Assembly: GCA_947307175.1 (NCBI GenBank)
Contig: CAMZIK010000003.1
Coordinates: forward strand, 1-64,000
DNA: 64,000 bases
Direction of reading: 5' to 3'
From: an uncultured Clostridia bacterium
GTDB lineage: Bacteria > Bacillota > Clostridia > Oscillospirales > Ruminococcaceae
Below the pieces are notes generated by a model. The model was not told the DNA's origin. It saw only the letters and a list, made by a program, of their open reading frames with translations, and searched no databases. A program made the translations under genes and the position numbers. Positions 13,011 to 34,545 of the stretch are shown piece after piece. The stretch's first letter is position 1, and each line of letters opens with the position of its first letter.

Positions 13011-13412
13011 ATGTTTATCCAGAATGGTATCGAGGGAATTGAAATACTTAGAGCTGAGCTGCCGCAGGAATTGCAGAACTGGCACAAGTTCGGAACGATA
13101 AACGATCTGCATTTCAAATGGGATCTTGATGAATGCAGCGGTGAGTTCGTGCGCTGCATTGATATGGCGCTTGCCTGCAATGGAAGCAGCTTTACGGTTC
13201 AGCTCTCTTTGTTCAATGTAAGCGGAAATCTGAGCTTTGATGCTGCAAACGGCTTTTTCAGCGGGCTTTCAATAGAAGAACGAACAGATGCAGGCTGTGA
13301 AAAAACAAGCAGGTTCAGAGTGTTCTCCGACGAACAGGACTGCCGTTTTGAACTGTTCTGCGAACGGATAAGAGCAGAGCTTTTTTCTGATATAACAAGC
13401 AGTATAGGGTAA
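13011..13412 (+). CDS. Hypothetical protein
   Basis: 133-aa ORF after nifS, RBS-like ggggtg. Confidence 0.6.
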   Translation: MFIQNGIEGIEILRAELPQELQNWHKFGTINDLHFKWDLDECSGEFVRCIDMALACNGSSFTVQLSLFNVSGNLSFDAANGFFSGLSIEERTDAGCEKTSRFRVFSDEQDCRFELFCERIRAELFSDITSSIG

Positions 13413-13789
13413 ATCAGAATTTAGTTTATTACTATGTATAAAGATGTGCACCCGAAGGGGTTTGGGGGCGATCGGAAAGCCCCCAAAAACAAGAGCTTTA
13501 CATCTGATGTTCAATCCGCCTTTTTGCAGGCGGCTTGAGGCGGCTGGCGTTACCACGGGGCAAGGGAAAGCCCTCTCTTACAGGGCTTTCCCTCTTGAAA
13601 AACAGTCCACAGGACTGTTTTTCAATTCACCCTTTGCCGTGCGCCTGACGTAAGGGATTTCGCTCTCTGCGGAGAGCGACGAGGGCGCTGCCCTCGACCC
13701 GCCACCTTTTTTTACGAGAAAAAGGTGGACGAAAAAACCTGTTTTTATGGCAGGTTTTCAAAGCCTGATTAGACCTATAAATTCTGATT
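13412..13789. repeat. Structured intergenic repeat element, family A copy 1, with 12-bp perfect TIRs
   Basis: AATCAGAATTTA (13412-13423) / TAAATTCTGATT (13778-13789); about eight internal hairpins; homologous to 34144-34545. Confidence 0.85.
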
Positions 13790-28124: not shown

Positions 28125-28391
28125 AAAAGTCCTCCGACAAGCTCACGCTCATCAGAGGACGAATAAATCGTGGTACCACCTCAAGTTTACAGAGCAAAAC
28201 ACGCTCTGCCTCGTGCGTTATAACGGCACGCCGCCGTGCTGCCTTTGCCTAAAGCTTTCTTGACAGCCTGCTCCATGATGTATTCAACCTGTGCCTGCAT
28301 ACTTCCTTTCACCTGCCGGAAGCTCTCTGAACGCTGACAGCACAAATCTACTTGTTCATTTCACCGCATTTCAAATATTAAAGTTAATATA
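28125..28391 (-). ncRNA. T-box leader, candidate Tyr (UAC) specifier
   Basis: Minus strand: AGAGAGCTTCCGGCAGGTGAAAGGAAGTA stem I features, GAATACA specifier-like site (28280-28285), AGGTGGTACCACGA T-box (28168-28181), GTCCTC...GAGGACTTTTTG terminator (28125-28160). Confidence 0.88.
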
Positions 28392-34143: not shown

Positions 34144-34545
34144 CAAATTAGAATTTAGCGGAGCTTCGCTCCGCTTTGATGCGCACATAATAAAAGTGTT
34201 TGCCCGAAGTGGTTTTAGGGGGCGATCGGAAAGCCCCCTAAAGAAAGTTCTTTGATGTTCAAGCCGCCTTTACGCAGGCGGCTTGAGGCAATATGCGTTA
34301 CCACAGGGTAAGGGAAAGCCCTCTCTTACAGGGCTCAGCACGGCACAGCCGTGGTGAACCTCATTTCAAAACAGTCCGCCGGACTGTTTTGAAATTCACC
34401 CTTTGCTGTGCGCCTGACGCTCGGGTGTTTCGCTGTCTGCGGACAGCGACAAGGGCGCTGCCCTTGACCCGCCACCTTTTTTTACGAAAAAAAGGTGGAC
34501 GAAAAAACCTGTTATTATTGGTTCGTTATTTTAAATTCTGATTTG
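34144..34545. repeat. Structured intergenic repeat element, family A copy 2, with imperfect TIRs
   Basis: CAAATTAGAATTTA (34144-34157) / TAAATTCTGATTTG (34532-34545), 13/14 bp; same ordered hairpins as 13412-13789. Confidence 0.85.

Follow-up and report, generated by a model that had tools for sequence, protein, structure and literature searches.

Interchangeable perfect palindromes with strong covariation form a probable MITE-like repeat family in Ruminococcus and its relatives

Two copies of a compound palindromic element lie in the window, by which we mean the whole 64,000-nucleotide stretch of the draft genome of an uncultured Clostridia bacterium that was analyzed here. Copy A is placed directly between an unnamed upstream ORF and thiI; the ORF ends at 13412, and its stop codon is completed by the left terminal repeat of the element. 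Copy B has as its neighbors a gene encoding a semialdehyde dehydrogenase domain on one side and a GNAT acetyltransferase gene on the other. Copy A has a 12-bp inverted repeat at each end with eight palindromes (H1 to H8) arranged in series between them (Table 1), and copy B has the same ends and the same hairpin order. Terminal inverted repeats bound both copies and were absent from the initial annotation, which had described a chain of hairpins with compensatory changes. No intrinsic terminator and no promoter signal is found between 13350 and 13850, and H7 lacks a following U-tract and thus gives no intrinsic-terminator signal.

Table 1. Positions of the two element copies and their parts within the window
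Feature	Position	Strand	Description
Copy A	13412..13789	+	Complete compound palindromic element bounded by terminal inverted repeats; ~40 places in the source genome match along its length
Left terminal inverted repeat, copy A	13412..13423	+	AATCAGAATTTA
H1 hairpin, copy A	13461..13487	+	TTTGGGGGC-GATCGGAAA-GCCCCCAAA, loop GATCGGAAA
H2 hairpin, copy A	13511..13538	+	Mismatch on one arm, 91% complementary
Core, copy A	13550..13747	+	H3 to H7
H3 hairpin, copy A	13563..13593	+	AGGGAAAGCCCT-CTCTTAC-AGGGCTTTCCCT
H4 hairpin, copy A	13595..13625	+	TTGAAAAACAGTCC-ACA-GGACTGTTTTTCAA
H5 hairpin, copy A	13660..13679	+	TCGCTCTC-TGCG-GAGAGCGA
H6 hairpin, copy A	13680..13696	+	CGAGGGC-GCT-GCCCTCG
H7 hairpin, copy A	13702..13728	+	CCACCTTTTT...AAAAAGGTGG
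H8 short palindrome, copy A	13734..13758	+	AAAACCTG...CAGGTTTT
Right terminal inverted repeat, copy A	13778..13789	-	Same 12-mer, on the reverse strand
Copy B	34144..34545	+	79% identical to copy A across the shared part
Left terminal repeat, copy B	~34146..34157	+	AATTAGAATTTA
Core, copy B	34298..34518	+	
Additional hairpin, copy B	~34336..34356	+	CAGCACGGCACAGCCGTGGTG, within the 3' arm of H3
H4 hairpin, copy B	34363..34395		
Right terminal repeat, copy B	~34532..34543	-	AATCAGAATTTA on the minus strand

The stem pairs that the initial annotation quoted for H1, H4, H5, and H6 are all present exactly as given in both copies, and these four stems differ in sequence while remaining paired. The H1 arms of copy B are TTTAGGGGGC...GCCCCCTAAA, and the two double substitutions reported for H4 fall in two adjacent pairs, with transversions on both arms. 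Elsewhere the pattern is less regular: H3 of copy B is interrupted by an inserted hairpin, and H2 of copy A is mismatched on one arm. Among further copies, the inner 8 pairs of H4 are almost invariant and the outer pairs are hypervariable yet complementary, and other repeat units carry the H1 module separately from the core.

That pairing is maintained is borne out by an alignment of 27 copies, in which 96.2% of cells pair, compared with 87.3% in shuffled copies and 37 to 54% when partners are slid by 1 to 3 columns. Cells changed on both sides number 118 (38 in shuffled copies and 5 to 12 with slid partners), with a covariation score of 0.231 (0.086 and ~0.05, respectively), and the covariation among these copies is both real and strong. 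The 378 nt of copy A fold at -168.9 kcal/mol, compared with -111.7 ± 6.1 for shuffles (z = -9.4), and folding of the minus strand is just as stable (z = -8.65), as is expected for DNA palindromes. The suggestion that no named family matches has held up. Comparison with Rfam 15 at the gathering threshold leaves the element without a family match, ruling out a known RNA family (the best weak match, RNAI, reaches 29.3 bits for a cut-off of 47), and a literature search found no paper describing the element. Elsewhere in the window, a T-box leader is present at 28152-28373 on the minus strand, with a score of 118.6 bits that is over the Rfam gathering score.

BLAST locates the element at about 40 places in the source draft genome and finds matches in 23 of 61 genomes, mainly of the same genus, with the core being the part most widely common between species. 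Cores often occur without terminal repeats, including in genomes nearly devoid of them (G003, G021, and G028), and the pattern of H4 plus TTCACC is found in many genomes of Ruminococcus and other Oscillospiraceae/Clostridia, including R. flavefaciens, among the matches listed. At one locus G006 is identical to the uncultured Ruminococcus sp. RUG13219, which assigns the genus. Neither plasmid nor phage collections contain a match, and carriage by either was rejected on the basis of these collections. We also note several isolated occurrences: a core piece at the edge of one viral contig; H4-like hairpins (AACAGTCCACAGGACTGTTT...TTTCACC) in another repeat context in Streptococcus macacae (L102 and L108), which may point to a module that is more widespread or has arisen by convergence; a good core copy on a 1.49-Mb contig labelled Alistipes sp., Bacteroidota (L113), reflecting either a mislabelled bin or horizontal transfer; and, in genera elsewhere in the family and order, lone AAAACAGTCCnnnGGACTGTTTT hairpins (L065 and L066, in G043 and G036) adjacent to sequence that resembles the 3' ends of tRNA genes.

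With a crude gene caller, 121 cores have two neighbors, which are tandem in 78 cases, convergent in 36, and divergent in 7, compared with 367, 110, and 93 baseline gene pairs at the same loci; divergent pairs are depleted (P = 0.0017) and convergent pairs enriched (P = 0.014). Between tandem genes, 31 cores are in sense and 47 in antisense orientation (P = 0.09), and certain gaps contain two cores in inverted order.

The terminal repeats define units that vary in position and content. There are 82 exact sites of AATCAGAATTTA in the source genome and none of the reversed control, as counted by sequence searches of a draft assembly that is broken at repeats. The consensus of 81 aligned ends is (A)TA at the edge followed by AATCAGAATTT(A/G). 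Position -1 is A in 80 of the 81, and positions -2 and -3 are T and A, respectively, each in 66 ends, giving an ATA edge; several ends carry CA or AA in place of TA, and the TA is possibly part of the terminal repeat. Complete noncoding units running from repeat to repeat are 103 to 470 bp long in the source genome and about 100 to 530 bp in relatives, and they have common ends and very different interiors. The number of terminal repeats also varies among relatives (41 in G017 and 1 in G016). As in MITEs, terminal inverted repeats surround a short noncoding unit, and the copies are dispersed and show insertion polymorphism.

Empty and altered sites are seen at several slots. In G004, G006, G010, and G017 the L009 slot contains no unit and the two genes abut. 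The L216 slot likewise lacks a unit in G006 and G010, whereas in G017 it is occupied by a unit that has the same TA edges and a different interior. These intergenic empty sites are strongly diverged, and the edge TA is indistinguishable from the end of a terminal repeat. In G009 the L009 slot (L259, C1:80900-81900) holds a gene-length insertion, apparently encoding a phosphoesterase, with no repeat. The element is absent from the copy A site in the eight relatives read, and only the right junction is comparable because the upstream gene is different there. At the copy B site, relatives carry palindromic units of unrelated sequence, a remnant from which palindromes have been deleted, or the H1 module alone; two palindromic blocks present in L203 are deleted in L204, one of them between CCCAA direct repeats. 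A second compound-palindrome family (GGGGGAAACCC...CCCCAG and CAGTAATGGGG...CCCCATTACTG), with the same terminal repeats as copies A and B in the source genome, occurs at L202, L203, L204, and L206 (copy B site, relatives) and at L214, L218, and L219.

The search for a transposase covered the DDE_3 (IS630-type) and IS200-type Y1 classes. The source draft genome has no DDE_3 transposase gene, and an IS630-type mobilizer was rejected on this basis. Its lone IS200-type Y1 gene has neither core nor terminal repeat in the flanks read, and an IS200/RAYT mobilizer was likewise set aside; the repeat-flanked RAYT gene by which REP/BIME/REPIN systems are recognized was not seen in this draft. No facing pair of terminal repeats enclosing an ORF was seen in the assembly, which breaks at repeats. 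A candidate terminus for such an element, the terminal-repeat end on C313 (L240), was rejected as an autonomous end, since it consists only of the 3' portion of a small ORF.

Within the units, hairpin modules form a mosaic: they are swapped, deleted, or inserted into one another's stems, and the mosaic breakpoints coincide with hairpin borders. For example, L011 and L013 are identical in 176/176 columns through H3 and then in 13/28 at H4, and L001 and L012 share H4 exactly and differ in H5-H6. Two-arm changes outnumber one-arm changes by 44:17 between copies that are 90 to 95% identical and by 8:4 above 95%, these being pairwise comparisons that are mutually dependent. The double changes are runs of adjacent pairs with transversions, in blocks common to mosaic copies, and because swapping a 30-bp hairpin alters both arms together, the paired changes are not independent compensations. 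Hairpin exchange or correction at the DNA level explains both the mosaics and the double changes without invoking RNA. Template switching, which generates multibase compensatory change in RNA genes (PMC8794818), would by analogy be a second DNA-level source of paired changes. The likeness lies in multibase compensation of stems by arm copying; here the substrate is repetitive DNA, and the inverted loops produced by certain events of this kind are not evident, with 0 of 174 H4 loops inverted.

We consider it probable that the element belongs to a MITE-like family of nonautonomous mobile DNA composed of interchangeable perfect palindromes. A trans-acting transposase that works on the terminal repeats would have moved units into TA-rich intergenic slots, and recombination between copies would have replaced whole hairpins, giving rise to the "compensatory" changes. 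Copying of one palindrome arm from the other by template switching during replication may have added further paired changes, and stepwise compensation at the RNA level would not be their main source. Selection may later have retained some core copies at fixed positions between genes, in either orientation. Counted against the MITE-like reading are the frequency of the core without terminal repeats, the lack of a DDE_3 or Y1 transposase linked to the repeats, an edge TA that may belong to the terminal repeat itself, the lack of inverted H4 loops, and the conservation of orthologous cores beyond that of fourfold sites, which is more than expected of junk DNA.

This conservation is seen between gyrB and gyrA, where cores of different species are identical at 176/178, 171/178, and 171/178 positions without gaps (96 to 99%), whereas gyrB fourfold sites in the same comparisons match at 94/169, 71/163, and 90/167 (44 to 56%). 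Over the five slots compared, with one genome per species, core identities are 0.73 to 0.98 and those of neighboring fourfold sites are 0.46 to 0.66, a significant difference in each pair. Orthologues in the same orientation are 0.90 to 0.98 identical at three slots, above the ~0.8 that is usual for unrelated copies; at the other two they are 0.73 to 0.80 identical, which is not above that level, and the cores there could be re-insertions. Slots exchange content or reverse orientation between species, and at two of them the core is inverted in certain species while remaining 0.80 to 0.87 identical. Opposite core orientations within a slot are seen in L022 relative to L048, L049, and L068, and in L069 and L315 relative to L294 and L302. 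At the L289/L301 slot, transfer between species is possible, since the non-core flanks are conserved too. Judged from these few slots, the core is likely to be under constraint where slots are orthologous, and some retained function is likely as well; the conservation could be explained either by DNA-level selection or by a circulating family that has recently re-seeded the slots.

Conservation at slots is one of several features that would be consistent with selection of the hairpins as DNA, either extruded or single-stranded and bound by protein, as in a chromosome-organizing site resembling gyrase-binding BIMEs or a structure recognized by a single-strand transposase. The stems are kept Watson-Crick, blocks of stem and loop (AACAGTCCnnnGGACT, TTCACC, and TGCG) are near-invariant across genera, orientation is indifferent, and inverted core pairs share one gap as in BIMEs. 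We regard this reading as unlikely, however, as no binding protein or RAYT-type transposase is linked to the repeats, whole hairpins are lost or swapped at certain slots with the neighboring genes visibly intact, and a bias toward convergent genes is also seen in pneumococcal mobile repeats. There is similarly a small chance that the core, a chain of hairpins, has been domesticated into a DNA device that selection retains at fixed intergenic slots, including gyrB-gyrA, irrespective of orientation. It would be replaced or flipped in place by exchange of palindromic cassettes, with the covariation arising from this exchange under DNA-level selection. We know of no bacterial precedent for covariation that arises from cassette exchange in this manner.

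A structured RNA (a 3' untranslated element, an attenuator, or a small RNA), with the paired changes as ordinary RNA compensation, would account for the strong covariation, the low folding energy, the near-identity of the gyrB-gyrA cores relative to gyrB fourfold sites, and the depletion of cores between divergent genes. On the transcribed strand an RNA stem can accommodate G.U pairs and not A.C pairs, and the type of mismatch thus discriminates RNA-level from DNA-level pairing. With stems located by a score in which G.T and A.C carry the same weight, the element stems contain 17 G.T, 33 A.C, and 4309 Watson-Crick pairs among 4433 (0.4% G.T), whereas predicted intrinsic terminators at the same loci, which served as the G.U control, contain 40, 23, and 1240 among 1330 (3% G.T). 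The G.T:A.C ratio differs between elements and terminators (Fisher P = 0.002), and G.T is ~8 to 10 times rarer in the element stems (P = 3e-14). There is no strand preference of wobble pairs with respect to neighboring gene direction (G.T 9, A.C 12), and the A.C excess, considered as a sign of a minus-strand RNA, was dismissed, being 17:8 at H4 once redundancy is removed and weak overall (33:17, P = 0.03). The element stems are almost purely Watson-Crick, as would fit pairing at the DNA level. Moreover, the two strands fold alike, cores lie in both orientations to genes, one slot carries the core inverted in other species, and neither a promoter or terminator signal nor an Rfam match accompanies the core; we judge the RNA reading to be quite improbable. 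The proposal that secondary structure is selected, as RNA or as single-stranded DNA, is thus sustained in part: pairing is maintained and core constraint at orthologous slots is likely, but compensation does not serve as a sign of RNA-level selection in stems that avoid G.U, fold alike on both strands, occur in both orientations, and change block-wise on both arms. Selection on DNA hairpins may still be a source of the maintained pairing. That the match is a chance or low-complexity artefact is refuted by the copy number and the shuffles, and we give it essentially no weight.

The MITE-like reading places the family among several known groups of repeats. Correia/NEMIS elements are classical bacterial MITEs with a TA target. 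TIMEs are mosaic MITEs (PMC4133298). The Ruminococcus family resembles both in having short noncoding units set by common terminal repeats and arranged in mosaic structures, and differs in an interior that is nearly all perfect hairpins and in a terminal repeat, AATCAGAATTTA, that was linked to neither a DDE_3 nor a Y1 transposase. Pneumococcal BOX, RUP, and SPRITE repeats are intergenic, highly base-paired, and MITE-like, with an excess between convergent genes; BOX is modular and spans 67 to 637 bp, and the terminal inverted repeats of SPRITE are short and simple (PMC3049150). The family described here is alike in its intergenic location, base pairing, terminal inverted repeats, and convergent excess, but differs in its apparently unlike sequences, its Oscillospiraceae/Ruminococcus hosts, its nested interchangeable palindromes, its core that is common without terminal repeats, and its interspecies slots with swapped or flipped content. 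REP, BIME, and REPIN sequences, associated with RAYT transposases, are palindromic high-copy intergenic repeats that spread nonautonomously (PMC2817692, PMC3116915); the high-copy intergenic palindromes and the inverted pairs within one gap are shared features, whereas the Ruminococcus units are far longer, have 12-bp terminal repeats at a TA edge, and do not lie beside the sole Y1 transposase gene. The GTAG/CGTC foot that accompanies the 20-40 bp REP palindrome was not noticed among the aligned copies.

These elements constitute an abundant and apparently unnamed repeat family of Ruminococcus and its relatives, at whose copies draft assemblies break. Covariation of the textbook kind, normally taken as proof of a conserved RNA, would here be the product of palindromic mobile DNA, and the count of G.U versus A.C with a terminator control is a cheap discriminator that could be used to screen repeat-derived RNA candidates. 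It is a puzzle that the core is 73 to 98% identical at common slots although nearby silent sites are near saturation. The family is probably one of mobile or formerly mobile, mosaic intergenic repeats built of palindromes, the core of which may have been put to use.
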